DNA of 64,000 nucleotides. Source: Janthinobacterium sp. 64 (GTDB lineage: Bacteria > Pseudomonadota > Gammaproteobacteria > Burkholderiales > Burkholderiaceae_D). Both the position numbers and the translations under genes were made by a program. Below the pieces are notes generated by a model. The model did not search any database, had not been told where the DNA came from, and saw only the letters and a program-made list of their open reading frames with translations. The stretch is taken from positions 5,580,001 through 5,644,000 of the forward strand of contig NZ_PHUG01000001.1 in assembly GCF_002813325.1 (NCBI RefSeq). The letters are read 5' to 3'. Positions 1,330 to 43,608 of this stretch are shown piece by piece (position 1 is the first letter of the stretch; the number at the start of each line of letters is the position of its first letter).

Positions 1330-1345
1330 TGTACGCTGTCGTACA
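1330..1345. promoter_or_regulatory. TGTACG-N4-CGTACA palindrome, copy 1
   Basis: A perfect inverted repeat, TGTACG-CTGT-CGTACA, in the region upstream of the small membrane protein gene (start 1171). At the class II distance on the minus strand the hexamer is GACACT (1308-1303), a weak -10. Eight related sites occur in the window. Confidence 0.6.
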
Positions 1346-1355
1346 CAAGGATCAA

Positions 1356-1601
1356 CTATCGGGACCGGTCAGCGTGATCATCTGCCATGCCCGGTATCCA
1401 GGCCAGCATGCCGGCCATGCCGACGGCGCCTGCCAGGCAGCTGACCATGCCGCCGGTCAGCAGCAGCATCACGCCGAACACGGGCGCGCTCGCTTGCAAT
1501 GGCGCCAGGTCCAGCGCGCAGAAGCCCAGCGCGGTGGCCAGGATGCCGGCACCGATCAAGCCGAGCCAGATCCGCTTACTGCCTGCCTTGTCGTTTTCCA
1601 T
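1356..1601 (-). CDS. small two-helix membrane protein, unknown function
   Basis: An 81-residue protein with a charged N-terminus (MENDKAGSKR). It has two hydrophobic segments (about residues 11-30 and 42-70) joined by a short loop, and an acidic/basic tail (DDHADRSR). I do not recognise a named family. The start at 1601 is chosen because AAGGAG stands seven bases upstream; a longer reading frame exists but lacks such a site. It sits alone between stress-type envelope genes on the same strand, so a membrane stress role is possible but not shown by any motif. Confidence 0.6.
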   Translation of the reverse strand: MENDKAGSKRIWLGLIGAGILATALGFCALDLAPLQASAPVFGVMLLLTGGMVSCLAGAVGMAGMLAWIPGMADDHADRSR

Positions 1602-1750
1602 CGCAGCTCCTTGAAGATATTCGTTGAACTTTCCTGAGTGCATCATCTCGCGGGATGGGAAACTCATCTGTACGCCAACGAACATTGCCAAAAAGAAAAC
1701 GCCCGGACGGGCCGGGCGTGTATTCGGTTTAAACGCCGGCTGGCGGCCGC

Positions 1751-2404
1751 TTAGCCCATGGCGCGCAAGCTGCCGTTGACGACGCGCACGCGGTCGCCCT
1801 GGCGCCAGTTCGGCGCGGCGCTCTGGTGCACGGTGCGCGTCTTGCCGTTATCGAGGCGCACGACGATGTTGTAGCTGCGCGTGGCGCGCACGCTGCCTTC
1901 GATCTGGTTGCCGGCCACGGCGCCGCCCACGGCGCCCAGCACGGTGGCCAGCTGCTTGCCGTGGCCGCCGCCTACCTGATTGCCCAGCAAGCCGCCGACG
2001 ACGGCGCCGCCGGCCGCGCCCACGCCGCTGCCTTCGGCGCGCGTATTGACTTCATGGATGGCTTCGATCACGCCGCAATTGCTGCACACCTGCGGCGCCG
2101 GGGCTGCCGCATATTGTTGCTGTGGCTGTTGCTGCGGCTGCTGAGGCTGTGGCTGGCGCACGGGTTGCTGCGGTGGCTGGGCTGCCAGCGCTTGCGCGCC
2201 GGCCGGCTGCAAGTTCGCTGGCGGCTGGTTCGCCTGCAGGCTGGCCATTTGCTCGGCCGAGGTGCCGGCTGCCAGCGGCTGGCTATCGCCCTGGGACGAA
2301 GGCAGCCAGCCCATCAGGGCCGCCGTGCCGACGCCGCAAAACAGCAGGACGGCGACGGCGGCGGCAAGCACCAGTGGATGGAGGGATTTGGTGGTGGTAG
2401 TCAT
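1751..2404 (-). CDS. glycine-zipper 2TM envelope protein with Q/P-rich linker
   Basis: A 217-residue protein. An N-terminal membrane segment (about residues 12-34, no lipobox) is followed by a Q/P/A-rich linker (about 70-105) and a CSNCG pair. Next comes a glycine-zipper block (GAAGGAVVGGLLGNQVGGG and GAVGGAVAGNQIEG). The C-terminal module (VVRLDNGKTRTVHQ, RQGDRVRVVNG) is the one found in SlyB/Pcp-like 17-kDa proteins. An almost identical C-terminal module occurs in the lipoprotein at 11234-11680, so the two are paralogues. AAGGAG precedes the chosen ATG. The upstream gap holds a shared palindrome at 2505-2520. Confidence 0.82.
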   Translation of the reverse strand: MTTTTKSLHPLVLAAAVAVLLFCGVGTAALMGWLPSSQGDSQPLAAGTSAEQMASLQANQPPANLQPAGAQALAAQPPQQPVRQPQPQQPQQQPQQQYAAAPAPQVCSNCGVIEAIHEVNTRAEGSGVGAAGGAVVGGLLGNQVGGGHGKQLATVLGAVGGAVAGNQIEGSVRATRSYNIVVRLDNGKTRTVHQSAAPNWRQGDRVRVVNGSLRAMG

Positions 2405-2504
2405 GGAGAGCTCCTTGTGTTTTTTGAAATAATGAAAAGGGTGATGCGTGTTCTGCGTGTTACTTGCGTCTGTTGCCAGTGTGCTGTGCCGCGTGCGCCG
2501 CTTC

Positions 2505-2520
2505 CGTGCGTCACCGTACA
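2505..2520. promoter_or_regulatory. YGTRCG-N4-CGYACR palindrome, copy 2
   Basis: CGTGCG-TCAC-CGTACA lies between the divergent glycine-zipper gene (start 2404) and the Crp/Fnr-type gene (start 2591). Rightward, the hexamer TAGGCT (2542-2547) sits 29.5 bases from the repeat centre, the class II spacing. Leftward the equivalent hexamer is CACACT. Confidence 0.55.
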
Positions 2521-2590
2521 TACAGGCACGGTACTGCACCGTAGGCTAAGTAAAAATTATGTCGAGTTGTAACGACACCAAGGAAAAGCA

Positions 2591-3367
2591 ATGCCACCAA
2601 CGAACGCCAGCATGACCCTGTCCCGCGATGCAGGCCGATCCGGCATGGGCACGCCTGCGGGCGCGCTTGATGCCGGTAACCGCTTGCTGGCCAGCCTGCC
2701 CGAGCACGACTTGCGGCACCTGACGGCGCTGTTCGAGAGCGTCACGGTCGAGGTGGGCGAGGTACTGTACGAACCAGGCCAGCCTATCGGCCACATCTAT
2801 TTCCCCGGCGACTGCCTGATCTCGCTGCTGGCCGTGGCGGAAGGGCGCATGACCCTGGAAGTGGGCTCCGTCGGCCGCGAAGGCGTGCTGGGCGCTTCCG
2901 TCGCGCTCGGTCATGAGCTGGCGCAAGTGCGTGCCGTCGTGCAACGATCCGGTACGGCCAGCCGCATCGGGCGGGCCGCGTTCTGCGCCGAGTTCGCCCA
3001 GCTCGAATCCCTGCAGCGTTTGCTGTACCGCTACACGGACACCTTGCTGGCGCAAGCCATCCAGATTGCCGTGTGCAGCCGCTTTCACGTGCTTGAGGCA
3101 CGCCTGGCCCGTTCGCTGCTGATCACGCGCGACCGCCTGCAGTCGGAAAAATTTCACCTGACGCATGAATTCCTCGCCCATACCCTGGGCGTGCGGCGGG
3201 TCGGCGTGACCAAGGCCGCCAGCGCGCTGCAACAGCAAAAACTGATTACCTACAGCCGCGGCAATATCGAGATCCTCGATTCCGCCGGCCTGGAAGCCGT
3301 TTCCTGCCGCTGCTACGAGCTGGTCAAGGACAGCGGCGCCATCGGCATGGCCAACGTCTTCGTCTGA
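2591..3367 (+). CDS. Crp/Fnr-family transcriptional regulator
   Basis: 258 residues. An N-terminal cyclic-nucleotide-binding-type beta barrel spans about residues 30-150 (VGEVLYEPGQPIGHIYFPGD is its first part). A dimer helix follows (about 145-175), then a C-terminal Crp-type winged helix (about 187-235). The recognition helix reads LGVRRVGVTKAAS, with Arg202-Arg203 in place of the usual R-E-T pattern. The phosphate-binding cassette is not the cAMP type, and no N-terminal Fnr cysteine cluster is visible, so the signal is unknown. AAGGAAAA precedes the ATG. Because a palindrome with Crp/Fnr geometry recurs around it, including in its own upstream region, I infer that it may be the regulator of that local gene set. 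Confidence 0.85.
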   Translation: MPPTNASMTLSRDAGRSGMGTPAGALDAGNRLLASLPEHDLRHLTALFESVTVEVGEVLYEPGQPIGHIYFPGDCLISLLAVAEGRMTLEVGSVGREGVLGASVALGHELAQVRAVVQRSGTASRIGRAAFCAEFAQLESLQRLLYRYTDTLLAQAIQIAVCSRFHVLEARLARSLLITRDRLQSEKFHLTHEFLAHTLGVRRVGVTKAASALQQQKLITYSRGNIEILDSAGLEAVSCRCYELVKDSGAIGMANVFV

Positions 3368-3392
3368 TTTCCTCATCCTCGTGCCGCGGACG

Positions 3393-3436
3393 CAAAAAAG
3401 CGGGGCGGGCGCCTGGGCACCCACCCCGCTTTTTTG
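3393..3436. terminator. bidirectional rho-independent terminator
   Basis: An A-run, a GC-rich stem (AGCGGGGCGGG against CCACCCCGCT, one mismatch) and a T-run lie between the convergent Crp/Fnr gene and the small glycine-zipper lipoprotein gene. Confidence 0.85.
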
Positions 3437-3444
3437 AGCGTCAA

Positions 3445-3663
3445 TTACTTCGGCTTGACCTGATTACCGATCACGCCACCGACGGCGGCGCCGCCGACTG
3501 CGCCGACGGCGCTGCCGCCCGTCAGCACGGAGCCGGCAACGGCGCCGATACCGGCGCCGATGGCCGTGTTTTTATCCTGGCCGGACATGTTGGCGCAAGC
3601 GGTCAAGCTCAACAGCAAGGCGGCAACGGAAGTGGTAGCGGCGATTTTTTTAATGATTTGCAT
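3445..3663 (-). CDS. small glycine-zipper lipoprotein (OsmB-like)
   Basis: A 72-residue lipoprotein. A signal sequence ends in the lipobox LTAC (Cys 23) and is followed by a glycine zipper (GAGIGAVAGSVLTGG, GAVGGAAVGGVIGNQ) ending in KPK. Size and layout match OsmB and related osmotically inducible outer-membrane lipoproteins. GGAGAA precedes the ATG. A palindrome of the shared type lies at 3786-3801, and a TATTCT hexamer sits at exactly the spacing expected of a class II activated promoter, so the gene is a good candidate member of the local regulon. Confidence 0.85.
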   Translation of the reverse strand: MQIIKKIAATTSVAALLLSLTACANMSGQDKNTAIGAGIGAVAGSVLTGGSAVGAVGGAAVGGVIGNQVKPK

Positions 3664-3758
3664 GATAGTTCTCCTATGAATTCGGACCTCGTGGCGCCGG
3701 CATGGTATGGGCCGGGGGACTTCGTATCGCCACGTCTTGGTGTTTCAGGCACGATCAC

Positions 3759-3801
3759 AGAATAGAATTGTGGCAAGGCAGGGTCTGTTCGGCAACGCAC
3801 A
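3759..3801 (-). promoter_or_regulatory. palindrome copy 3 with correctly spaced -10
   Basis: TGTTCG-GCAA-CGCACA (3786-3801, centre 3793.5). On the minus strand TATTCT (3764-3759) begins 29.5 bases from the centre, which would put the start site near 3752 with the repeat centred at -41.5. The target is the OsmB-like gene starting at 3663. Confidence 0.6.
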
Positions 3802-3853
3802 TAGGGGTGTAACAATTGTAATCGTGCACGGCCGCCCTATCTTGCCATCTTGT

Positions 3854-5890
3854 TCAGCGGCTTTTGCGCGCTGTCTTGCCCGGTTTCGGCGCCACCGGTT
3901 TCACGCGCGCCTGGGCCAGCAGCGCCGCGCATTCGCTATCTTCGACGGGGCCGGTATTGACCAACGGCAGCAGCGCCGCCACGGGCGCCACCACGGCCAG
4001 CGCCAGGGCGCCACCGGCGCGCAGGGCCAGCACGCCCTTGTCGACGCTCACGTCGGGCTTGCTGAACGTGCCATGCACATACAGGGGCGAGCGCAGCGAA
4101 AAGACGCGCAAGCCCTTGCTGTCGGGCCGCAGGGTCAGGTCCAGCCGTTCATCGGCCAGGTTCACCGTGCCATCGATATTGAGGATGGCGTCATCGGTGT
4201 CGACGATGAACTGGCGCGTGCGCATCAAGCCCTTGGTGACGGCGAAGTCGGCGGCCATGCAGTTCAGCCTGACCTGCTTGTCGCCAGACAGTTTGGCCAG
4301 CACGACACTGCCGATGTTCAAGCCCATTTCTTCCAGCAACAGTTTGCTGATGCTGCCCCGGTTGATCAGCGCACGCACTTCGCCGTTCGAACTGCCCAGC
4401 AGGGTGGCGACGGAATTGCCCGTGGCCGACAGCGATGCATCGCCATTGATTTCGCCCACGCTGGCCTGCAGGGCCGGCAGGCGGGGGAACAGTTGCTGGA
4501 TGTGCAGATGGCGGGCGCTGGCCTTGAGTTCGGCCGCGATGCCGTTGGCGATGACCTTGCCGCTGCCGTCGAGCTTGATTTGCGACGTCAGGGTGCCGCC
4601 CGCCACGTTGAAGTTGAGCGGCGTCAATGACAGCACGCCATCCGTCAGCACCACATGCGTGTCGAGCTTGCTGATCGGCAGCTCGGCGTCGCGCGTGATC
4701 TTGTCGGCCGTGTAGCGCACGTCGGCGTCCAGGCTGGTCCACCGCTCCGTCTTGAAGGTTTCCACCGGCAGCACGCGGCCGGCCGGTTGCGTCGACGGCA
4801 CGCCCCGTTCCTTCTTGCTGGCGCTGGAATCAGCGCCCACCAGCGGACCGAGGTCGGAAAATTGCAGCAGGCGCGAGTGCACTTCACCCGTCAGGCGCTT
4901 GCGCGGCGTGCTGGCGGAAAAGGCCAGCTTGCCGCCGATGTCGCTCGAACCCACCTTGCCGCTGAACTGGTCGTACACCCATTCGCCGCCACGCGGTGCC
5001 AGGGTGCCCGTCAAATGGCCTTCCGTGCTGAAATGCGGCGTTTCCGGCAGCAGCACGCCCGTCAAGGGATACAGGCGCGCCATGCTGGGTCCGGATAGCT
5101 TCAGGCGCACGTCGAGCGCGGCCAAGTCCGCCGGGCGCGTCAGCGTGCCTTCGATGGCCACGCTGCTGCCGCTCGCGCGCATGTCGGCCTGGATGGGGAA
5201 GGGCGTGCCTTGCCGCTGCAGCGACAGCACGCCGCCCGCCTTGCCGCCGCCCTTGACGGTTTCGCCGCGGTAGGTGCCCGACAGTGTCCAGGCGATGCCG
5301 TAGCGCGCATCGCCCGCGAGGGTGTCGACATCGGCGCGCATCGCCGTTTTGCTGACGCCATCGTCCAGGGTCACGCTGCCCTTGCTGAAGACCACGCTTT
5401 GCAGTTCCAGCTGCCACGGCGATGGCTGCTCCTGCTTGTCGAAGGTCCAGTTATTTTTGCCATCCTTGCTGCGCAGCAAGCGCACCTGCGGCGTGTCGAA
5501 GCGCAATTGCGGGATGATGATTTTCTTGTCCAGCAGGGCCAGCGGGTTGAGCGAGAACGCCAGCTGGCTGACGCTGGCCAGTTGCGCCTGGCCATCCGTG
5601 TCCGCCATGCTGCTCGGGTTGCCCAGGCGCACATCCTTGGCCTGCAGGTGCGGCCAGGGCAGATAGTCGCGCCAGGTTTTTTGCCCCGTAGTTGCCGGTT
5701 GCCGCCACGTCAGCGCCAGGTCGCCCACGATGGCAAACGGCCGTCCCAGCGCGTCGCTGGCGCGCGCATTGAGCCAGGGCTTGGCGCGGTTCCAATCCAT
5801 GTTCGACAGGACGATGGCGGCGGTGACGGGCAGGGCGATGAGCACGGCGGTGCTGGCAAGGGCGATTTTCTGACGGCGGGAGAGCGGCAT
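3854..5890 (-). CDS. AsmA-family protein
   Basis: A 678-residue member of the AsmA family, inner-membrane-anchored periplasmic proteins linked to lipid transport and outer-membrane assembly. It has one N-terminal membrane segment (about residues 9-29) followed by NMDWNRAKPW, the usual AsmA opening. A long beta-rich periplasmic region follows, with the AsmA C-terminal signature near the end (VVLAKLSGDKQVRLNCMAADF and LDLTLRPDSKGLRVFSLRSPLYVHGTFSKPDV). It ends in a second hydrophobic stretch and a basic tail. I use the ATG at 5890. A GTG ten codons upstream is also possible, and neither has a strong ribosome site. It appears monocistronic. Confidence 0.88.
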   Translation of the reverse strand: MPLSRRQKIALASTAVLIALPVTAAIVLSNMDWNRAKPWLNARASDALGRPFAIVGDLALTWRQPATTGQKTWRDYLPWPHLQAKDVRLGNPSSMADTDGQAQLASVSQLAFSLNPLALLDKKIIIPQLRFDTPQVRLLRSKDGKNNWTFDKQEQPSPWQLELQSVVFSKGSVTLDDGVSKTAMRADVDTLAGDARYGIAWTLSGTYRGETVKGGGKAGGVLSLQRQGTPFPIQADMRASGSSVAIEGTLTRPADLAALDVRLKLSGPSMARLYPLTGVLLPETPHFSTEGHLTGTLAPRGGEWVYDQFSGKVGSSDIGGKLAFSASTPRKRLTGEVHSRLLQFSDLGPLVGADSSASKKERGVPSTQPAGRVLPVETFKTERWTSLDADVRYTADKITRDAELPISKLDTHVVLTDGVLSLTPLNFNVAGGTLTSQIKLDGSGKVIANGIAAELKASARHLHIQQLFPRLPALQASVGEINGDASLSATGNSVATLLGSSNGEVRALINRGSISKLLLEEMGLNIGSVVLAKLSGDKQVRLNCMAADFAVTKGLMRTRQFIVDTDDAILNIDGTVNLADERLDLTLRPDSKGLRVFSLRSPLYVHGTFSKPDVSVDKGVLALRAGGALALAVVAPVAALLPLVNTGPVEDSECAALLAQARVKPVAPKPGKTARKSR

Positions 5891-5974
5891 AAGCGGAATT
5901 CTTTCTGGACAAGTAGACACGATGCTACAGGAATCGCCACAAAACCGGTCCCGTTTCTGGTTTTGCAGGCGTGC

Positions 5975-5992
5975 ACGTGCGCTGCCGCACGT
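5975..5992. promoter_or_regulatory. palindrome copy 4 (upstream of DUF4398 gene)
   Basis: A perfect 7+7 inverted repeat, ACGTGCG-CTGC-CGCACGT, 50 bp upstream of copy 5 (centre to centre). It has no matching -10 at class II distance, so it may be an auxiliary upstream site. Confidence 0.45.
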
Positions 5993-6025
5993 TGCCCATG
6001 CAAGTATTGTCGATTTCTTACTCTA

Positions 6026-6068
6026 TGTGCGGCACCGAACGGATATGTGGGGAGCCGGAGCCTATAAC
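6026..6068 (+). promoter_or_regulatory. palindrome copy 5 with TATAAC -10
   Basis: TGTGCG-GCAC-CGAACG (6026-6041, centre 6033.5) is followed by TATAAC (6063-6068) beginning 29.5 bases from the centre. This puts the predicted start near 6075 and the repeat at -41.5. It is the best promoter candidate of the set and reads into the gene at 6141. Confidence 0.65.
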
Positions 6069-6140
6069 GTCATACATCAAACGCAGTTCCTGATTCGTTC
6101 CACCTGTTACACATCAATCACATTCTCCAGGAGAAGAAAA

Positions 6141-6545
6141 ATGACAAACCGAGATTCCATCACAACCCCCATGACCGCTCTGGCCGCCTGCCTCACCGCC
6201 GTTGTTCTGATGACGGGCTGCTCCAGCCTGAAAACGCCAGCCACGGCTGATGTCGCCGTGTCGCGCGCCGCCGTCGATAACGCCGCCAGCGCCGGCGCCG
6301 CCGAACTGGCCCCCGATGAAATGCGTTCGGCCCGCGAGAAAATGCGCATGGCTAACCAAGCCTTGAAAGACCGCGACTACAAACTGGCGCGCGACCTGGC
6401 CGACCAGGCGCAAGCCGATGCCAAGCTGGCGCAAAGCAAGGCCAACTCGGCCAAGGCCACCAGCGCGGCCGATGAAATCAACGAGAACATCCGCGTCATG
6501 CGAGAAGAACTCGACCGTGCCAATCAGCAAGCTCCAAAACAATAA
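6141..6545 (+). CDS. DUF4398 domain lipoprotein
   Basis: A 134-residue lipoprotein with lipobox LMTGC (Cys about residue 26). The rest is a DUF4398 region: an alpha-helical, alanine-rich repeat-like segment (DEMRSAREKMRMANQALKD, then KLARDLADQAQADAKLAQ) probably forming a coiled coil in the periplasm. GGAGAAG precedes the ATG. It is 35 bp upstream of a second protein that joins the same helical region to an OmpA domain, so the pair is probably co-transcribed and may act together at the cell wall. The upstream promoter carries two shared palindromes. Confidence 0.82.
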   Translation: MTNRDSITTPMTALAACLTAVVLMTGCSSLKTPATADVAVSRAAVDNAASAGAAELAPDEMRSAREKMRMANQALKDRDYKLARDLADQAQADAKLAQSKANSAKATSAADEINENIRVMREELDRANQQAPKQ

Positions 6546-6580
6546 GCAACAACAACAATAACTAATAACAGGACTCCATC

Positions 6581-7480
6581 ATGAAAAAAGCTACCTACAC
6601 CACCATTCCCGGCCTGCTGGCCATGGCCGCTTTAGTTGCCGCCTGCAGCTCCGCACCGACCACCACCAGTCTGCTCGACCAGACGCGCGGCGACTACATG
6701 GCGGCGCAATCGAACCCGCTGGTATCGACCTATGCGCCACGCGAATTCCGCGAAGCGAGCGCTGCGCTGGAAGCGGCGAACGCGGCCGCCACGCGCCAGG
6801 ATGACAGTGAAAAGGTCGACAAGCTGGCCTATCTGGCCAAGCAAAAGATAGCCACGGCACAAGAGGTAGCCAAGCAGAAAGCCGCAGAAGCCGATGTCGC
6901 CAACGCCGGCAAGCAGCGCGATCAGTTGCGCCTCGATGCGCGCACGCAGCAGGCCGACCAGGCCACGGCCCGCGCCCAGTCGGCGCAAGCCGATGCGGAA
7001 GCGGCCAAGGCGCAGGCGCAAGCGGCCGAAGCGTCGGCCCGCGATGCGCAAGCCCGCGCCGCCGGACTCGAAGCGCAGCTGGCCGACCTGGCCGCCAAGA
7101 AAACCGAGCGCGGCATGGTCATCACCCTCGGTGACGTGCTGTTTGGCACGGACAAGGCGAACCTGACGGCCGATGGCGCAAATACGGCGCGCAAGCTGGC
7201 CGACGTACTAAAAAACAACCCGCAACGCACCGTGCTGATCGAAGGTTTTACGGATAGCACGGGCGGTTCCGCGCATAACCTGGAATTGTCGCAACGCCGC
7301 GCCGAATCCGTGCGCAATGCATTGCTGGAACAAGGCATCAGCCGCGACCGCATCGCCACGAAAGGCTACGGCGCCGCCTATCCGGCCGCTGGCAATGACA
7401 CGGTGGCAAACCGCCAGCTGAATCGCCGGGTGGAAATCGTGCTGTCGGAAGATAACACCGCCATTCCCGCCCGCCGTTAA
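6581..7480 (+). CDS. OmpA-family lipoprotein with DUF4398 coiled coil
   Basis: A 299-residue protein. It has a lipobox (LVAAC, Cys about 22), a DUF4398-like helical region (about 30-95) and a long alanine/glutamine-rich coiled coil (about 95-172, QADQATARAQSAQADAEAA). The C-terminus is an OmpA peptidoglycan-binding domain (about 180-290: LGDVLFGTDKANL, IEGFTDSTGG, NRQLNRRVEIVLSE). The outer-membrane lipid anchor and cell-wall domain are therefore separated by a rod of roughly 80 residues. It follows the DUF4398 lipoprotein gene by 35 bp, and a ferritin-like gene follows after two small hairpins. Confidence 0.88.
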   Translation: MKKATYTTIPGLLAMAALVAACSSAPTTTSLLDQTRGDYMAAQSNPLVSTYAPREFREASAALEAANAAATRQDDSEKVDKLAYLAKQKIATAQEVAKQKAAEADVANAGKQRDQLRLDARTQQADQATARAQSAQADAEAAKAQAQAAEASARDAQARAAGLEAQLADLAAKKTERGMVITLGDVLFGTDKANLTADGANTARKLADVLKNNPQRTVLIEGFTDSTGGSAHNLELSQRRAESVRNALLEQGISRDRIATKGYGAAYPAAGNDTVANRQLNRRVEIVLSEDNTAIPARR

Positions 7481-7533
7481 ACGCCTTGGGGCGTTGTAAG
7501 CCAAAGGCAGCACCGGCCGAACCTTGGCCGGTG
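7480..7533 (+). other. two short hairpins between OmpA and ferritin-like genes
   Basis: Hairpin 1 is AACGCC-TTGG-GGCGTT (7480-7495). Hairpin 2 is CACCGGCC-N7-GGCCGGTG (7511-7533). Neither is followed by a T-run, so they look more like RNA processing or stabilising elements, or a leaky stop, than a full terminator. Confidence 0.45.
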
Positions 7534-7564
7534 GATACCCATGCAAGACTTGAAAGGAAACATC

Positions 7565-8101
7565 ATGACACTAACATCTGTTGAGATTCCAGCTGGCATC
7601 GACACGGCCGCCATCCGCGCGGCCGCAAAAAACCTGGACGACGGCGCCGTGACGGCCGGCTACCAGGCCGATCGCCAGGAGTTGATCACTCTGCTGAATG
7701 GGGCCCTGGCCACCGAACTGGTGTGTATTGCGCGATATAAACGCCATTACTACACCGTGAGCGGGCGCGACAATGGCAGCATCAAGGCCGAGTTTCTGGA
7801 ACACGCGCAGCAGGAGCAGGAACACGCCGACTGGCTGGCCGAACGCATCGTGCAATTGAATGGCAAGCCAGATTTTAATCCTGCGACATTGCTTGCACGT
7901 AGCCATGCCGAGTATGATGACTCCGAAGACGTGCAAAGCATGGTGCGTGCCAATCTGATCGCGGAACGGGTGGCGATCGAGTCGTATCGCCAGATGATCG
8001 TGAAAATTGGCGACAAAGATCCGACCACACGCCATTTGTTGATCAAAATCATGGCTGTCGAGGAAGAGCACGCCGATGATATGCGCGATCTAATGGAATA
8101 G
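7565..8101 (+). CDS. ferritin-like (bacterioferritin/Dps-type) protein
   Basis: A 178-residue four-helix-bundle protein. Helix A has ALATELVCIARYKRHYY. A second motif, EFLEHAQQEQEHADWLAERI, carries the ExxH-type iron ligands, and a C-terminal AVEEEHADDM repeats the E-x-x-H pattern. These are the diiron ligands of bacterioferritin-like/DUF892-like ferritins that oxidise and store iron and protect against peroxide. The chosen ATG has AAAGGA upstream; the longer frame starting at 7541 lacks one. It sits in the envelope-stress run and may share the transcript of the two OmpA/DUF4398 genes. Confidence 0.85.
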   Translation: MTLTSVEIPAGIDTAAIRAAAKNLDDGAVTAGYQADRQELITLLNGALATELVCIARYKRHYYTVSGRDNGSIKAEFLEHAQQEQEHADWLAERIVQLNGKPDFNPATLLARSHAEYDDSEDVQSMVRANLIAERVAIESYRQMIVKIGDKDPTTRHLLIKIMAVEEEHADDMRDLME

Positions 8102-8159
8102 TGTTTTTGAGTAAAGTAGGTATAGTAACTACATTCATCCATAGCTAAGGAGCTAAACC

Positions 8160-8462
8160 ATGTTGGAAAACAATATCACCACCGTCAATAACGATGTCAA
8201 AACCCTGGTCAAGGATGCGCAAGCCCTGTTCAGCGCCGCTGCCGCCCTGACGGGCGAAAAAGCCGATGAAGTGCGCGTCAAGGGCATGAAAACCCTGGAC
8301 GCCGCTCTGGCCAAGGCGCATGAAGCGCAAGCGTCGGCCATCGTTGCCACCAAGCAGATGGCTGCCCAGGCGGACGGCTATGTCAAGGAAAACCCATGGC
8401 GCACCGTGGCCGTCGCCGCCGGCGTCGGCGTGCTGGTCGGCTTCATCCTGGGCCGCAAGTAA
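8160..8462 (+). CDS. DUF883 family protein (ElaB/YqjD-like)
   Basis: A 100-residue protein with an amphipathic helical N-terminal two-thirds and a C-terminal membrane helix ending in the family signature (ENPWRTVAVAAGVGVLVGFILGRK, residues about 77-100). ElaB/YqjD proteins are stationary-phase inner-membrane proteins, and YqjD can hold ribosomes at the membrane. AAGGAG precedes the ATG. It is the first of three closely spaced genes arranged like E. coli yqjD-yqjE-yqjK. Confidence 0.88.
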   Translation: MLENNITTVNNDVKTLVKDAQALFSAAAALTGEKADEVRVKGMKTLDAALAKAHEAQASAIVATKQMAAQADGYVKENPWRTVAVAAGVGVLVGFILGRK

Positions 8463-8480
8463 TCCACTGTCAGGAGCGAT

Positions 8481-8867
8481 ATGGACAAGTCTGCTTCGTC
8501 TCACCAGGGGCCGGGATTGATCGGCTCGGTCGCCGGCCTGGCCAGGAACGCCGTCGGACTGATGTTGTCGCGGCTGGAACTGGCCACCATCGAACTGTCG
8601 GAAGTGCGCAATCACATGCTGCAGCTGATTGTCATTTTCGCGCTGGCGACGGTGGCGGGCTTGTTTGCCATCGCTTACGGCAGCGTGCTGATCGTTTTCC
8701 TGGCCTGGGATAGCCTGGGCTGGAAGATCCTCGCGATCATGACGGTCGTGTTCGTACTGCTGGCCATCGCGCTGGTCATGTATGCGCGCGCCATGCTGCG
8801 TCAAGGAAAGCTGTCGATGCCCGCCACCATGGCGGAATTGAAGGCCGACCGCGACATGCTGATGTAA
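8481..8867 (+). CDS. YqjE-like phage-holin-superfamily membrane protein
   Basis: A 128-residue inner-membrane protein. An amphipathic N-terminal segment (residues 12-45) is followed by two strong membrane helices (about 46-72 and 78-100) and a basic/acidic tail (MAELKADRDMLM). This is the standard layout of YqjE (putative Actinobacteria holin-X/holin superfamily III). It starts 18 bp after the DUF883 gene, with AGGAG before the ATG, and belongs to the same operon. No lytic partner is nearby, so the holin label reflects ancestry, not function. Confidence 0.82.
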   Translation: MDKSASSHQGPGLIGSVAGLARNAVGLMLSRLELATIELSEVRNHMLQLIVIFALATVAGLFAIAYGSVLIVFLAWDSLGWKILAIMTVVFVLLAIALVMYARAMLRQGKLSMPATMAELKADRDMLM

Positions 8868-8888
8868 GCTGCCCTACGAGGAGAATTC

Positions 8889-9227
8889 ATGTCGGAAACC
8901 GACAAACTGGCGGCGCAAGCCGCCCGCAAGCGCCTGCTGATCGCCCAGGGCGAAATGTATCGCGTGGGCATCGTGCATGCGCGCGCCAACGTGGGCTATG
9001 CCTTGCGTCCCGAATCGATGCTGCAGGGCGTGGTCGAAACGGCGGTCGGCTTTGCCGGCCACCGCGTCGAATCTCTGCTGGCGCCGGGCGGCATGCGTTT
9101 GCAGGGCGCCATGCCTTACGTGCTGACGGCGCTGTCCTTTATCGGACGCAAGAAGCTGGTCAAGCCGGCCCTGGTCCTCGTGGCCGTGGCCGCCGTTGCC
9201 GCCAGCTGGCTGCGCCGCAAGCGCTGA
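8889..9227 (+). CDS. YqjK-like small protein, third gene of the yqj-type operon
   Basis: A 112-residue protein. The N-terminal charged helix (KLAAQAARKRLLIAQGEMYRVGI) resembles the R-K-x-x-L-x-x-x-A start of YqjK. One weak and one clear hydrophobic segment (about 88-106, VKPALVLVAVAAVAASW) precede a RRKR end that probably stays in the cytoplasm. It follows YqjE by 21 bp with AGGAG before the ATG, and a terminator closes the operon 22 bp after the stop. The family assignment rests mainly on position. Confidence 0.65.
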   Translation: MSETDKLAAQAARKRLLIAQGEMYRVGIVHARANVGYALRPESMLQGVVETAVGFAGHRVESLLAPGGMRLQGAMPYVLTALSFIGRKKLVKPALVLVAVAAVAASWLRRKR

Positions 9228-9248
9228 ACGCAGGTCGTGTTGCACAGG

Positions 9249-9276
9249 AACGCCGTCATTGACGGCGTTTTTTTTG
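9249..9276 (+). terminator. rho-independent terminator of the yqj-type operon
   Basis: Stem AACGCCGTC-ATT-GACGGCGTT followed by eight T. Confidence 0.92.
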
Positions 9277-9360
9277 CCTGTACCCAAGGTCCGACACGCA
9301 CTGACGCAATCCCTTACAATGATCCACGCCGCACCCCGCGGTGGACAGAGGGCCATCTTG

Positions 9361-10515
9361 ATGACGCATTCGAAGACACCGATCAATCAGTTAAATCCCT
9401 CGCGCCTGCGCATCGTGCTGGTGCTGCAGGGGGGCGGCGCACTGGGCGCCTACCAGGCCGGCGTCTACCATGCGCTGCACGAACATGGCCTGGCACCCGA
9501 CTGGGTGGTAGGTACCTCGATCGGCGCCATCAATGCGGCCATTTTGGCCGGCAACAAGCACGAGGACAGGCTCGTGCGTCTGAAAGAGTTCTGGCAGCGC
9601 GTGGCGCACCGCGACAGCATCGACATGAATCTGGTCTCCGACCAGCAGCGCCGCTCGAACATCTGGCTGGCCACGCTCGATACGGTGCTGCGCGGCGTGC
9701 CCGGCTTCTTCAAGCCTCGTTCGTTCAGCCTGTTTCCCGCCGGAATCGCCGTCAAGCCGGAAGAGGCGAGTTTTTATGACACCAGCGAGCTGGCCAGCAC
9801 CCTCGGGGAACTGGTCGATTTCGATTACCTGAACCAGCCCGGCGGCATGCGCCTGACGGTCAACGCGCTGCGCGTCAAATGCGGCAGCCTCACCAGTTTC
9901 GACAGCCAGCAGCAACCGCTGACGGCCGATCACATCCGCGCCAGCGGCGCCTTGCCGCCCGGCTTTGCGGGCGTGCGCGTCGATGGCGATTTGTATTGGG
10001 ACGGCGGCCTGTACTCGAACACGCCGCTTGAAACCGTGCTCGACGACACGCCCCACGTCGACACGCTGGTCTTCATGGTCGACCTGTGGAGCTCGGAAGG
10101 CCCGGAGCCGACCACCCTCGATGAAGTGCAGACGCGGCAAAAGGACGTCACCTTCGCCTCGCGCTCGAAGCGGCACATCGCCGATTACGTCAATACGCAT
10201 ACCTTGCAGCGCAAACTGCGCGAACTGTACGCCGGTCTGCCCGACACCAAGCACAACCGCCAGCAGACGCAAGAGCTGGTAGCGCTCGGTTGCGACAGCA
10301 CCATGCACATCGTGCGCCTGCCGTATGCGGGGCGCGACTGGCACATGGCGGCCAAGGACATCAATTTCTCGAAGGGCTCCATCGAGTGGCGCTGGGAGCA
10401 GGGCTATCAAGACGGCTTGCGCGCGATCAAGGCGGCCGGCTGGCTGGCGTTTGTCACGGAAGACACGCCACTCGTGGTGCATGAATTGCCACCCTACGAG
10501 CGCGACGCCGCTTAG
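9361..10515 (+). CDS. patatin-like phospholipase with DUF3734 C-terminus
   Basis: A 384-residue Ser-Asp dyad acyl hydrolase. The oxyanion-hole loop GGGALGAYQAGV is at about residues 22-33, the nucleophile elbow GTSIGA at about 56-61, and the catalytic Asp in YWDGG about residue 218. A DUF3734 region follows (about 250-360, with RQKDVTFASRS and a long alpha-helical end). Relatives are soluble cytoplasmic or membrane-associated lipases acting on phospholipid or acyl-ester pools, and some are linked to polyhydroxybutyrate granules. No signal peptide is seen. I start at the ATG at 9361, which has GAGGG upstream. The stop at 10513-10515 is followed at once by the first copy of a long-hairpin repeat. 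Confidence 0.88.
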   Translation: MTHSKTPINQLNPSRLRIVLVLQGGGALGAYQAGVYHALHEHGLAPDWVVGTSIGAINAAILAGNKHEDRLVRLKEFWQRVAHRDSIDMNLVSDQQRRSNIWLATLDTVLRGVPGFFKPRSFSLFPAGIAVKPEEASFYDTSELASTLGELVDFDYLNQPGGMRLTVNALRVKCGSLTSFDSQQQPLTADHIRASGALPPGFAGVRVDGDLYWDGGLYSNTPLETVLDDTPHVDTLVFMVDLWSSEGPEPTTLDEVQTRQKDVTFASRSKRHIADYVNTHTLQRKLRELYAGLPDTKHNRQQTQELVALGCDSTMHIVRLPYAGRDWHMAAKDINFSKGSIEWRWEQGYQDGLRAIKAAGWLAFVTEDTPLVVHELPPYERDAA

Positions 10516-10517
10516 TG

Positions 10518-10636
10518 ACGCCTGTCAAAACCTGCTGCGCGTCGGTATAGGCGGCCTGCGATGCTCACCGTACTAGAAGTACGGTTGCGCTTCTTAGCCA
10601 CCTCTCCCTTCCGCTCGCGACGGTTTTGCCAGGCGT
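10518..10636 (+). repeat. long-hairpin repeat, copy A
   Basis: A 119-bp element with 15-bp terminal inverted repeats (ACGCCTGTCAAAACC at 10518-10532 and its complement at 10622-10636, one mismatch). The central 7-bp stem is ACCGTAC-TAGAA-GTACGGT. The two arms also pair in between (AGGCGGC against GCCACCT), so the whole element is one imperfect hairpin. It begins two bases after the patatin stop codon, in the same orientation. Copy B (39309-39428) shares most of its bases. Confidence 0.85.
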
Positions 10637-10674
10637 TGCAAGAGTAAAGAGCAAGAGTACGGCGTATCGCTGCA

Positions 10675-10977
10675 TCACTGCGGATGGGCTGCCTCGCGCA
10701 GCTTCTCCGCGTTCGCCATGTCTTGCCGATACGTGTCTTGCGCGTCCTTCAGGCAGGTGGCGCGCGCGGCCGATGGTTCCGAACGGCAGGCTTTTTTGGC
10801 CTCGGCCAGCGCGGCGGCGATTTCCTTGCGCAGGGTGCGCAGCTGGGCTTGCGCCGTGCTGTCTTCCTGGTACCAGCGTTGCGGGTCTCCCGGCTGCGGC
10901 GTGGCCGTCTGCGCGATTGCCAGCGGCGCCAGGCTGCAGGCTAGCAAGGTGGCCAAGAGTGTGTTGTGGATAGTCAT
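10675..10977 (-). CDS. small secreted protein with a CX10C pair
   Basis: A 100-residue protein with a clean signal peptide (cleavage after AIAQ or AIA, about residues 20-23). The mature part is helical and charged and carries one cysteine pair spaced C-x10-C (ACRSEPSAARATCLKDAQ). The same spacing and flanking pattern occurs three times in the secreted protein at 11949-12503, so the two belong to one family of unnamed periplasmic proteins. AAGGAGG precedes the ATG. It may be the last gene of a minus-strand run that begins at 11680, although a terminator-like hairpin lies upstream. Confidence 0.72.
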   Translation of the reverse strand: MTIHNTLLATLLACSLAPLAIAQTATPQPGDPQRWYQEDSTAQAQLRTLRKEIAAALAEAKKACRSEPSAARATCLKDAQDTYRQDMANAEKLREAAHPQ

Positions 10978-10997
10978 GATATTTCCTCCTTGAAATG

Positions 10998-11024
10998 AAA
11001 AAGGCGCCGTAGCGCCTTTTTTTA
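10998..11024. terminator. terminator after DUF3309 gene
   Basis: AAGGCGC-CGTA-GCGCCTT is flanked by A-rich and T-rich runs. It lies at the 3' end of the minus-strand DUF3309 gene and overlaps its stop codon region. Confidence 0.8.
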
Positions 11025-11174
11025 CAACCTGCCCGTCAGTAATAGCAGGATCAGTATCACTACGACGAGGCCGGCGATGCCGCTGGGGCCGTAACCCCAG
11101 TTGCGGCTATGCGGCCAGGTGGGCAGGACGCCGACCAGGGCCAGGATCAAGATGATCAGAATGATGGTGCCCAT
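11022..11174 (-). CDS. DUF3309 small membrane protein
   Basis: A 50-residue protein made of two hydrophobic helices (residues 2-18 and 29-47) joined by a loop with the DUF3309 signature (LPTWPHSRNWGYGPSGIAG). Function is unknown. Such proteins are often found beside general-stress envelope genes, as here. I use the ATG at 11174, which has AAGGAG seven bases upstream. It lies 59 bp after the glycine-zipper lipoprotein gene on the same strand and probably shares its promoter, which carries a shared palindrome. Confidence 0.85.
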   Translation of the reverse strand: MGTIILIILILALVGVLPTWPHSRNWGYGPSGIAGLVVVILILLLLTGRL

Positions 11175-11233
11175 GGTATCTCCTTGTTGGTGCATGGTTT
11201 GGCGCGGGCTTGCTGGCAAGCCTGGCCAGCGGA

Positions 11234-11680
11234 TTAATAGCGGTAGACGCGGCCGTCAACGACGCGCACGCGGTTGCCCGGGCGCAAATCATTCGCGTTG
11301 TCTTGCACCACGGTACGGTATTCGCCGTTGTCGAGGCGCACGCTGATTTGGTAAGCCTGCGCTTGCTGCCTGCGGCCTTCCACCTGGTTGCCCACGACGC
11401 CGCCGGCGACGGCACCGGCCACGGTGGCGGCCGTGCGTCCGCCGCCCGAGCCGATGGTATTGCCCAGCAGGGCGCCGGCGATGCCGCCGACCACGGCGCC
11501 GGCGCCGCTGGTTTGACCTCCGCCCTGCACGATCTGGATGGAATCGACGGTGCCGTACATGGCGGACTCAGGCTGGTTGGCCGGGTAATATTGTTGTGAC
11601 TGGGAAGGACCGGTGGCGCAACCGCTGAGTACAGCGGTGGCGGCGAGCATCAGTGCAGCCAAGGTGGCGTTGGTTTTCAT
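11234..11680 (-). CDS. glycine-zipper 2TM lipoprotein (SlyB/Pcp-like)
   Basis: A 148-residue lipoprotein. The lipobox is VLSGC (Cys about 21). Two glycine-zipper helices follow (GAGAVVGGIAGALLGNTIG and AATVAGAVAGGVVGNQVEG, about 58-103). The C-terminal beta module (ISVRLDNGEYRTVVQ, RPGNRVRVVDGRVYRY) is nearly the same as that of the protein at 1751-2404. SlyB-type proteins form rings in the outer membrane and stabilise it under stress. The upstream region holds a shared palindrome with TAAGAT at the class II spacing. Confidence 0.87.
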   Translation of the reverse strand: MKTNATLAALMLAATAVLSGCATGPSQSQQYYPANQPESAMYGTVDSIQIVQGGGQTSGAGAVVGGIAGALLGNTIGSGGGRTAATVAGAVAGGVVGNQVEGRRQQAQAYQISVRLDNGEYRTVVQDNANDLRPGNRVRVVDGRVYRY

Positions 11681-11713
11681 TTTATTCTCCTGACGAGGTG
11701 AGGGTGTAGTGCC

Positions 11714-11756
11714 ATCTTAGTCACGCCCCTGTCCTTGGTCTGTACGCTGCCGCACG
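11714..11756 (-). promoter_or_regulatory. palindrome copy 6 with TAAGAT -10
   Basis: TGTACG-CTGC-CGCACG (11741-11756, centre 11748.5). On the minus strand TAAGAT (11719-11714) begins 29.5 bases from the centre, predicting a start near 11707 for the lipoprotein gene at 11680. Confidence 0.62.
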
Positions 11757-11855
11757 CACTTATTTGCTGTCGAACTGGCAATGTGGGCAGGAGCGATCCA
11801 GCAAAACGTTGTTATTTCTCCCTGTCTGCCTTCCGCTTTCAAAATAAATTACTTG

Positions 11856-11898
11856 TGTACGGCAGCGTACAGAAGAGCGGCGACTATCCACGTAAAAC
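11856..11898 (+). promoter_or_regulatory. palindrome copy 7 with TAAAAC -10
   Basis: A perfect TGTACG-GCAG-CGTACA (11856-11871, centre 11863.5) is followed by TAAAAC (11893-11898) 29.5 bases from the centre. The predicted start is near 11905, reading into the CX10C-repeat gene at 11949. Confidence 0.65.
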
Positions 11899-11948: not shown

Positions 11949-12503
11949 ATGAACAAGAACAAGCTCTTCACCGCCATCGTCGTCAGCCTGGCATGCGCCG
12001 CCTGGGGCGGTCAGGCAGTGGCTGCCACGCCGGAAGCGAAAGCGGCCTACAAGGCGGCCAATGAGCAGGCGGGCCTGAATTACAAGCTGGCACATGCCGA
12101 GTGCGAAAAAATCACGGGCAACCCGAAAGATGTCTGCGTCGCCGAAGCGAAGGCCGTGCGCGCCTACGATGAAGCGGTGGCTCAGGCGCAATACACGAAT
12201 ACCCTGCGTGCCTACACCAAGGCGCGCATCAAGATTGCCGATGCCAACTACGACGTCGACCTGGCCCGCTGCAATGCGCTGACGGGCAACGACAAGGATG
12301 TCTGCGTCAAGCTGGCCAAGTCCACCAAGGTGGCGGCCCTGGCCGATGCCAAGGCGGACAAGAAAGTCATCGAAGCGCGCAGCGATGCGCGTGAAGCAAA
12401 AAGAAAAGCCGAGTACAAGGTCGCGACAGAAAAATGCGATGCATTAGCCGGCGCAGCCAAGGATGACTGTATCAAGGCTGCAAAAACCCAGTTTGGCTAC
12501 TGA
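11949..12503 (+). CDS. secreted protein with three CX10C repeats
   Basis: A 184-residue exported protein. The signal peptide ends near AVAA (about residue 26). The mature protein is highly charged and helical and carries three copies of a motif: a cysteine, ten residues, then a second cysteine and an A-K end (CEKITGNPKDVC, CNALTGNDKDVC, CDALAGAAKDDC). Each pair is well placed for a disulphide linking two helices or capping a loop. I do not recognise a characterised family. AGGGAGAAA precedes the ATG at 11949. Its promoter region carries a perfect copy of the shared palindrome, so it probably belongs with the stress envelope genes. Confidence 0.75.
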   Translation: MNKNKLFTAIVVSLACAAWGGQAVAATPEAKAAYKAANEQAGLNYKLAHAECEKITGNPKDVCVAEAKAVRAYDEAVAQAQYTNTLRAYTKARIKIADANYDVDLARCNALTGNDKDVCVKLAKSTKVAALADAKADKKVIEARSDAREAKRKAEYKVATEKCDALAGAAKDDCIKAAKTQFGY

Positions 12504-15245: not shown

Positions 15246-16274
15246 TTACTGCACGCGGCGTTCGATGGTGATTTGTTCCACTTCAACGCGGCGGTTTGGT
15301 TCCAGGCACTTGATCAGGTCGGCACGCTTCTTGTTATCGCAGGTGACGACAGGATTGGTGGAGCCCTTGCCTTCAGCCGTCAGGCGGTTGGCGGCGACAC
15401 CGTGGGCGACCAGGTATTCCTTGACTGCATCAGCGCGCTGCTGCGACAGTTTCAGGTTGTACTTCGGCGAGCCGATGCGGTCGGCATAACCGCTGATGAC
15501 CACGTTGTTGACGTCCGGCGCAGCGCTCAGCACGCGGGCGATTTCGTCGAGCTTGGTCTGTGTCGGACCCAGCTTGGCGCTGTCGAACGCGAACAGCTCC
15601 GTTGCCGACATCGTCACTTTTTCAAAGCGTGCTGGCGGTGGCGGTGGTGGTGGCGGCACGACCACGACGACTTCTTCGCGCGCTGGCGGCGGCGGTGGCG
15701 GTGGTGGCGGCGGTGCAGGCGGTTTGTCGAACGCGAAGTTCAGGCCCACGGTGACGTAGTAGTTGTTGCTCTTGCTGCTAGGGTCGAAGGTGTTACCGCG
15801 CAGGAAACCGTGCACATTGCGGATGTCAGCCTGGAACGACAATTGATCGTTGATCGTGGACTGGAAGCCCAGGCCGACGCTGGCGTAAGGCGAGCTCTTG
15901 CTGCGTTCGCCGAAAGCGAAGCTGGTGTCCTTGTCGCGCTGCATGCCGGCACCGACCAGCAGGAAGGGACGGAAGGCTTTACGCGAGAACATGTACAAGC
16001 CGTCTACGCCCAGCGTATTTTGCTGGTAGCGCTGACCGCCATCCTTGGAGCGGGCGTACGTGGTGCCCAGCTGGATATCCCAGTCCGGGGAAACAGGTTT
16101 GCCGAAACGCAAGCCTGCGCCATAGCCGGTTTTATCCGTGGCAAAGTCGGAATCTGGCTTGAGTGCGTTGAGGCTGGGTTGAATGTACCAGGAGGGATTG
16201 ATTTCCTGGGCCTGTGCGCCGAGGGCGGAGCACAGTACTGCGGCGGCAACGGCGATTTTTTTTAGATTATTCAC
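15246..16274 (-). CDS. OmpA-like outer-membrane protein with two polyproline linkers
   Basis: A 342-residue protein. A signal peptide ends at ALGAQAQ (about residue 23). An eight-strand beta-barrel of the OmpA/OprF type follows (about 25-180), ending NYYVTVGLNFAFDK. The linker has two proline runs of about ten and eight residues separated by an R-E-E-V5 strand. The C-terminal OmpA peptidoglycan domain starts at about residue 230 (FAFDSAKLG, ISGYADRIG, CLEPNRRVEVEQ). I choose the GTG at 16274 because GGGAG lies eight bases upstream and a clean signal peptide follows. No ATG in frame does as well. It is probably the major OmpA porin. Confidence 0.88.
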   Translation of the reverse strand: MNNLKKIAVAAAVLCSALGAQAQEINPSWYIQPSLNALKPDSDFATDKTGYGAGLRFGKPVSPDWDIQLGTTYARSKDGGQRYQQNTLGVDGLYMFSRKAFRPFLLVGAGMQRDKDTSFAFGERSKSSPYASVGLGFQSTINDQLSFQADIRNVHGFLRGNTFDPSSKSNNYYVTVGLNFAFDKPPAPPPPPPPPPPAREEVVVVVPPPPPPPPARFEKVTMSATELFAFDSAKLGPTQTKLDEIARVLSAAPDVNNVVISGYADRIGSPKYNLKLSQQRADAVKEYLVAHGVAANRLTAEGKGSTNPVVTCDNKKRADLIKCLEPNRRVEVEQITIERRVQ

Positions 16275-16746
16275 AAGTAACTCCCAACGTTGATAAGAGA
16301 TTGTCTCTACTGCATCAATGCGACAACTGCCAGACATGCTATTGCTAGAGATAGACAGCAATTCCAGGTGCGCTTTCTTGCGATAAATGCACTGCTGTTG
16401 GAGTAGAGAATACGGTTGCAGGTTCAGGTGGTCGGTGCGCTGGCGCACAAAGCATTGTGGTAGATCAATGGTGTTGCAGATTCACGACAAATACTTTGCT
16501 GTTGAAAAAAACTCATCTGCCTCGACAAAAACTGGCGGCAACAGCCTATGGACGGGCATCGCTGCGGGAGGCAATCGTACGACTTGTTACTGGCATGCCA
16601 CTGTATATTAGCAACAATGATGAGCTTGATAACTAGTATTACTTTACTGTTGTATTCCTGCCGCGTTCGCTTACCTTGTCTTGCTTCCTCCAGGCAATTT
16701 TTGCGCGCCGCAGCCAGCTCCGCCACATTTCATCAAGGAGTCACCC
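16275..16746. other. 472-bp divergent intergenic region, AT-richer than surroundings
   Basis: This lies between the OmpA gene and the alpha-2-macroglobulin gene. It is visibly AT-rich, with a TATATT hexamer near 16605 and several A/T tracts. It must hold the promoters of both genes, but I cannot assign a matched -35/-10 pair with confidence. No RNA gene, shared palindrome or repeat was found in it. Confidence 0.4.
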
Positions 16747-38362: not shown

Positions 38363-38689
38363 GATTTTTCCTTTGCAAGAGTCGACATAGCGCGATGCGG
38401 GGGCGTGCGCCGCGCGTGAAGCTTGAATTTATGGCAAGAAGGCTGATGCTTCTGTTCGCCACTTCACCTTGAACGCAGAAATGTCACTGCAGGTAGATGC
38501 TCTGTAGAAATAATTCAGTAAGGAAATATTTTTCACTTTCTTGTTCCTAATGTTCGTTAACGCACAGACCAAGGAAGAGCAGGGTGGCATTCTGTGACCA
38601 GACGCCCAGGATTTGTGGTGTTCTGGTATAAAAATTGCCAAGAACTTAACAATCCGGGCTACCGGCAATCGTTTAAAAGGAGTATTCAA
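38363..38689. other. 327-bp divergent gap with an inverted repeat around a TATAAA box
   Basis: The gap is AT-richer than its surroundings. GTTCTGG (38620-38626) and CCAAGAAC (38638-38645) form an inverted repeat, with one bulge, flanking TATAAA at 38627-38632. No -35 match is present at the right distance. It may be the promoter and operator of the DNA-binding-like gene at 38690. Nothing else was recognised. Confidence 0.35.
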
Positions 38690-43592: not shown

Positions 43593-43608
43593 TGTGCGCA
43601 AGCGAACG
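43593..43608. promoter_or_regulatory. YGTRCG-N4-CGYACR palindrome, copy 8
   Basis: TGTGCG-CAAG-CGAACG lies 80 bp upstream of the glycine-zipper gene at 43688, more than 30 kb from the other copies. The halves match copy 5 exactly. No good -10 is seen at the class II distance. Confidence 0.5.

Follow-up and report, generated by a model that had tools for sequence, protein, structure and literature searches.

Introduction

The binding sites of CRP/FNR regulators consist of two half-sites that form a 16-bp palindrome, and the same geometry is found in the inverted repeats described here, which lie in a 64-kb stretch of Janthinobacterium sp. 64 DNA together with a gene (2591-3367) for a Crp/Fnr-family protein. 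This whole stretch, positions 5,580,001-5,644,000 of contig 1 of a 6.30-Mb genome, is termed the window. The half-site of Escherichia coli CRP is TGTGA, and FNR-type regulators, which are defined by a cluster of cysteines near the N-terminus that binds an iron-sulphur centre, use sites of similar geometry with a half-site different from the one found here. The sequence TTGACA is the -35 box. RpoS/AlgU-type envelope and osmotic stress regulons include osmY, elaB/yqjD, lptF and otsBA. According to PMC5957442, activator sites are centred at -41.5 in the class II position and at -93.5 in the class III position.

The system of the window resembles E. coli CRP class II promoters in its predicted centre at -41.5 and in the Crp-type helix-turn-helix and fold of its regulator, but differs from them in the half-site (TGTRCG), in a nucleotide-binding domain that scores below the Pfam cut-off and in a polar GA that follows the site. 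With FNR-type regulators it has the superfamily fold in common, whereas no cysteine precedes residue 75. The genes concerned overlap in family with the RpoS/AlgU-type regulons (BON, ElaB-like DUF883, LptF-like OmpA, glycine zippers, otsBA), but their promoters carry a Crp/Fnr-type operator. A described regulon or operator for this Crp/Fnr group was not found in the literature searched, although the slash in the spelling "Crp/Fnr" weakened several of the searches.

We consider it quite probable that TGTRCG-N4-CGYACA is the operator of the protein encoded at 2591-3367, that this protein acts by class II activation, and that it governs an envelope/osmotic stress regulon. A dimer would sit at the class II position, with its centre at -41.5, and would assist RNA polymerase at promoters that have a -10-like element, the GA being the core of a -35 box that abuts the proximal half-site. 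Most of the target promoters would have one polar site each. Two divergent gene pairs have two sites each, and in the case of asmA/DUF4398 it is probably the DUF4398 gene that both of them serve. A single common site, facing both ways, lies in the glycine-zipper/regulator pair. Since this common site also faces the regulator gene, the regulator is probably self-regulated. The putative targets are small membrane-protein, glycine-zipper, DUF4398/OmpA, CX10C and OmpA-barrel genes in the window; elsewhere in the genome they are mscS/otsBA, the gene of a GH94 protein that resembles glucan synthases and the gene of a small protein.

Results

Inverted repeats of the window

The preliminary description of this DNA listed eight intergenic inverted repeats that fit YGTRCG-N4-CGYACR with up to one mismatch in a half. 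All eight were present, five of them exact (1330, 2505, 5976, 11741 and 11856) and three with one mismatch (3786, 6026 and 43593). The repeat that had been placed at 5975-5992 is real, but its correct register is 5976-5991. Three more sites lie beyond that list: 1669, 16434 and 38551, which face the genes 1356-1601, 15246-16277 and 38690-39310, respectively. The features are given below; hexamers "at 29.5" are those at 29.5 bases from the centre of the site.

1330..1345, minus strand: predicted operator TGTACG-N4-CGTACA with GA, GACACT at 29.5, for the DUF5670 gene 1025-1171
1669..1684, minus strand: predicted operator, one mismatch, GA, GATGAT at 29.5, for the small membrane-protein gene 1356-1601
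2505..2520, no strand: predicted operator shared by two genes; GA and CACACT on the side of the glycine-zipper gene 1751-2404, no GA and TAGGCT on the side of the Crp/Fnr gene
2591..3367, plus strand: regulator of the Crp/Fnr family and proposed binder, with the recognition helix VRRVGVTK
3786..3801, minus strand: predicted operator, one mismatch, GA, TATTCT at 29.5, for the glycine-zipper gene 3445-3663
5976..5991, no strand: palindrome without GA and without a -10 match towards asmA, probably accessory, 50 bases upstream of the 6026 site
6026..6041, plus strand: predicted operator, one mismatch, GA, TATAAC at 29.5, for the DUF4398 gene 6141-6545 and perhaps also for those that follow it
11741..11756, minus strand: predicted operator, GA, TAAGAT at 29.5, for the glycine-zipper gene 11234-11680
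11856..11871, plus strand: predicted operator, GA, TAAAAC at 29.5, for the CX10C-repeat gene 11949-12503
16434..16449, minus strand: predicted operator, GA, TATTCT at 29.5, for the OmpA-barrel gene 15246-16277 (Pfam OmpA, OMP_b-brl)
38551..38566, plus strand: predicted operator, GA, CATTCT at 29.5, for the gene 38690-39310 (no Pfam match)
43593..43608, plus strand: predicted operator, one mismatch, CACGCT at 29.5, GT instead of GA, for the glycine-zipper gene 43688-44254

The spacer of four bases was specific: five exact palindromes had it, and every other spacer from 0 to 11 gave none or one. The core.GT.CG-N4-CG.AC. occurred at 12 places in the 64 kb, i.e., 24 strand matches against 4.1 expected in first-order Markov sequence, and 11 of these places are sites listed above. 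The sole exception, 60486-60501 (AGTTCGCCGTCGGACA), lacks both the GA and the -10 signature and is probably a chance match.

The hexamers TATAAC, TAAAAC, TATTCT and TAAGAT were at 29.5, as had been described. The remaining copies had been said to have weak -10s; this holds for 5976, where none was found, but not for most of the others, which have a conserved -10-like hexamer at the same distance (1330, 43593 and, in two directions, 2505). The composite signature of site, GA and -10 had pointed to 16434 and 38551, and both were then found to be conserved. At 16434 the core and GA were present in 20/20 same-genus loci, with TATTCT at 29.5 in 18 of the 20, TAATCT once and one case shifted by one base; at 38551 the site, GA and CATTCT were present in 16/18 loci read, with one locus shifted by one base and one without such a site (L384 and L403, whose frame was not matched, are omitted from these counts). 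All 30 same-genus loci have kept the 43593 site, to within one mismatch, together with NANNCT at 29.5.

Conservation and placement across related loci

Homologs of 21 window proteins were located by tblastn in a comparison set of 69 Oxalobacteraceae-type loci. These loci contained 215 exact palindromes with spacer 4 and from 0 to 5 with each of the other spacers between 0 and 10; with up to one mismatch the numbers were 460 and 24-148, respectively. The preliminary description would have been contradicted by a motif equally common inside genes. Gene placement was judged on the window-homologous genes, which span 609,972 of the 1,339,031 bases (46%), and only 6 of the 460 sites, and none of the 215 exact ones, lay inside them. 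Among the sites with up to one mismatch, the largest groups that could be assigned were asmA/DUF4398 (81 in 54 loci), glyz1751/regulator (67 in 65), DUF5670 (65 in 63), glyz11234/bon (60 in 32), glyz11234/cx10c (42 in 22), glyz3445 (28 in 28) and mem1356 (22 in 22). For 62 sites, 21 of them exact, no neighbouring gene was assigned, and some of these may lie inside other genes.

Promoter geometry and the polar GA

For each of 10 gene groups (22 to 67 loci each), a -10 matrix was scored at 74 offsets relative to the centre of the site. The claimed fixed distance of 29.5 bases was the best of the 74 offsets in 10/10 groups, with a poor score in the asmA group. With the farther of two sites as a control (5 groups), 29.5 ranked 72nd, 29th, 41st, 48th and 47th, and it was first in none of the five. 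Glyz1751 and the regulator gene have one site between them, and 29.5 was its best offset towards both. The pooled profile of the nine groups other than asmA reads TGTRCG-N4-CGTACA-GA and then a hexamer at 29.5, with A as its second base in 92%, T as its sixth in 71%, and then G in 72%.

A GA opened the promoter-proximal flank in most loci of eight groups: DUF5670 (62/64), mem1356 (22/22), glyz1751 (64/67), glyz3445 (28/28), duf4398 (50/56), cx10c (20/22), glyz11234 (49/54) and bon (31/33). On the distal side there were 0-5 per group, except in the regulator group (65/67), where the distal side is the glyz1751 promoter. The GA after the promoter-proximal half is polar. A centre at -41.5 would put it at -33/-32, i.e., at the GA of the TTGACA box. 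The -10-like hexamer at 29.5 in 10/10 groups would fit a class II activator, the placement at -41.5 being predicted from the sequence.

At 5976 the asmA gene is unsupported as a target in the window, with no GA and 0/6 hexamer matches. In the asmA group as a whole 29.5 ranked first, yet its score was negative and 7% of the hexamers were good, and it was not counted as a promoter. Two sites were present at 28 of the 61 DUF4398 promoters examined, one site at 28 and none at 5. The two sites were 50 bases apart in 19/28 loci, and other spacings were found in 9. With this spacing of 50 bases, the upstream one of the two sites would be placed near -91.5, not far from the class III position.

The regulator encoded at 2591-3367

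A Crp-type helix-turn-helix was present in the regulator (HTH_Crp_2, 51 bits against a cut-off of 27), while Pfam cNMP_binding remained below its cut-off (17.7 vs. 27.5 bits). Profile matches extended over almost the whole of NtcA and GlxR, and the best Foldseek matches of the structure model (pLDDT 77.5) were CRP/FNR structures, with TM scores of only 0.38-0.50 to the query. The protein has both of the features that mark the Crp/Fnr superfamily, the helix-turn-helix and the N-terminal beta-roll effector domain with the overall fold. The first cysteine of its translation is residue 75, so that there is no N-terminal cluster of the FNR kind. Across 26 aligned relatives C241 was present in all, and C162 and C239 in at least 90%; these three cysteines are a possible redox or metal site.

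The helix LGVRRVGVTK was identical in 67/67 orthologs read (L038 and L083, unreadable from the start of the match, are not counted). The best site within 300 bases upstream of the regulator orthologs was exact in 65/69 and had one mismatch in L035-L037. In the Janthinobacterium loci (L016-L034) the regulator is matched at 84-97%. The 2591-3367 protein is the likely binder of the predicted operator.

Sites elsewhere in the genome

The loose exact motif occurred at 24 places genome-wide and its reversed control at 23; hence most of the loose matches outside the cluster are probably due to chance, and the loose motif was rejected as a genome-wide regulon finder. The excess of the motif is local, in the GA-extended form and in the conservation across species. 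The tight form TGTRCG-N4-CGTACAGA, with up to one mismatch, was found at 8 places in the genome, 5 in the cluster and 3 outside, a 5/8 count that is not independent because this form was built from the orthologs of the cluster; the reversed control gave 3 matches, equal to the 3 outside places. Among the outside matches L354 was rejected, as it has no -10 match at 29.5 (CTGAGA), and so was L353, which has CAGACT, but where open frames overlap on both strands. A GA-form site with one mismatch and CATGCT at 29.5 lies at G000:C1:4417264-4417281 (L013, L355), before a gene for a small lipoprotein with collagen-like repeats, and it is a plausible candidate operator.

Conserved sites were also found before three other genes. 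The mscS/otsA intergenic site was within one mismatch in 14/19 same-genus loci, with GATACT at 29.5 in 19/19 (L142 is left out of this count), and otsB lies next after otsA; no such site was found in L138-L141, which are distant or partial matches. The site before the gene of a 131-residue protein was exact, with CATAGT, in 17/18 loci read. The one before the gene of a 2,896-residue GH94 protein of the cyclic-glucan-synthase type was kept with TAC[GC]AT in 18/20 loci, one half being TGTTCG in three of the 18 (L283 and L301 are left out of the small-protein and GH94 counts). The regulon had been described as local, and this stands for the 5/8 GA-form places in the cluster, but not for these three conserved sites.

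Paralogs as alternative binders

Three paralogs of the regulator are encoded in this genome, 39-43% identical to it and with VRRE helices, i.e., with Glu for Val in the recognition helix. The core.GT.CG-N4-CG.AC. was present within 400 bases upstream of 28/72 VRRE-type genes (0.4 expected) and of 43/46 VRRV-type genes (0.2 expected), many of the latter being close relatives. NANNNT was at 29.5 in 15/30 of the VRRE-type sites, against a background of 5.6% and 1 to 8 matches at the remaining eight offsets between 25.5 and 33.5. GA was present in 14/30. The half-sites of these paralogs lean to TGTTCG/TGTGCG, with exceptions. One of the paralogs, L086 (G000:C1:4593683-4594393; 40% identical, helix VRREGVTE), has CGTTCGCTACCGAACG upstream of its own gene, with TATAGT at 29.5.

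A rival reading is that some of the sites, or all of them, are bound mainly by VRRE-type paralogs (one or several, L086 for example) and not by the 2591-3367 protein; the sites with a CGAAC half (1669, 3786, 6026 and 43593) would be the first candidates. The upstream sites just described, that of L086 included, speak for this explanation, and so does the genus g12, which combines VRRE-type genes with TGTACG sites. We nevertheless regard it as unlikely: the gene inside the cluster is of the VRRV type, and its self-site is exact in nearly all of the orthologs. Furthermore, the strict promoter signature was found in 12/15 genomes that encode a VRRVG[VI]T[KN] regulator, against 8/40 without one (Fisher p 7e-5), in a hand-made table of 55 GTDB-family genomes at least 90% complete (5/60 were dropped for completeness) in which the own genus counts three times and the helices of the second group were read in part only. 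Position 4 of the half-site also leans apart in the self-sites, with A 44, G 37, T 7 and C 2 for the VRRV type and T 25, G 22, A 11 and C 2 for the VRRE type, a difference that is confounded by descent. A clean Val/Glu specificity switch at this position is not claimed, because of the VRRE-type genes with TGTACG sites in g12 and because most of the VRRV-type self-sites are one orthologous site. Since VRRE paralogs often have sister operators, cross-reading between regulators is possible.

In a phylum-wide sample a homolog of L086 was found in 51/249 genomes (E 1e-35). The core was upstream in 10 of the 28 loci examined (L343 was dropped for a stop in frame), against 0.24 expected: in 9/16 with the helix VRREGVT, in 0/3 with VQRTT, VRRTS or VKRTS, and in 1/9 with an unread helix. 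In other genomes (L211, L213, L214, L215, L216, L218, L220 and L221) two or three Crp/Fnr paralogs of the group are neighbours, no more than a few kilobases apart.

Discussion

The reported palindromes are confirmed, and the observation is stronger than first described; the operator, its conservation, its spacing and the polarity of the GA are well established at the level of sequence. The intergenic placement, the rank of the 29.5 offset and the local cluster of the GA form support the Crp/Fnr-like interpretation proposed in the preliminary description.

Activation rather than repression is the likely mode of action. If the 2591-3367 protein were a repressor, a dimer over the -35 region would block the polymerase until a signal releases it; the site does abut the predicted GA of the -35 box, and the regulator side is devoid of GA, so that this promoter may differ. 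A fixed 29.5 distance in unrelated promoters, however, would suit contact between an activator and the polymerase, whereas a repressor should tolerate more variation, and we regard repression as quite improbable. Chance, base composition or a dispersed repeat with no role in regulation can be dismissed for practical purposes as explanations of the palindrome. The loose form is indeed as frequent as its reversed control genome-wide, but such explanations are contradicted by the specificity of the spacer, the position of the sites between genes, their conservation in several genera, the constant distance to the -10 and the polarity of the GA.

Several observations weigh against activation by the 2591-3367 protein through this operator. 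The L077 ortholog is without the usual self-site and carries a different one-mismatch sequence, and the regulator's own promoter side has the GA in 0/67 loci. No convincing asmA promoter was found at 5976. The palindrome between mscS and otsA carries 2-3 mismatches in 5/19 loci, and the loose motif shows no genome-wide excess. The VRRE-helix paralogs own sister operators with identical spacing, and the 8/40 genomes that show the strict signature without a VRRV-type regulator include the DUF5670 sites of genus g12.

A stress role of the regulon is plausible from the gene families. They fit the envelope-stress regulon originally proposed, but osmotic or general stress fits as well, and the conserved sites before mscS/otsBA, the GH94 gene and the small-protein gene make envelope/osmotic stress a better fit than envelope stress alone.

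More tentatively, and with somewhat less than an even chance in our judgement, a large and little-known Crp/Fnr group, marked by the helix VRR[EV]G[VI]T and present in at least two proteobacterial classes, may use one operator code, NGTNCG-N4-CGNACN with GA and a -10 at 29.5. Sister proteins with slightly different half-sites would then read overlapping promoter sets as a paralog network, and Oxalobacteraceae would have a dedicated envelope/osmotic stress system. If this code holds, such paralogs would be a case for how sister regulators avoid or use cross-talk, and if the finding is true for the wider group, regulons would be predictable in many genomes.

For the Crp/Fnr group there is now a candidate operator with its promoter architecture, and also a list of targets, most of them without a known function (DUF4398, DUF5670, glycine zippers, CX10C repeats). 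In this soil bacterium, a little-studied Crp/Fnr-type protein probably turns on envelope/osmotic-stress genes through one conserved DNA site at a fixed distance.

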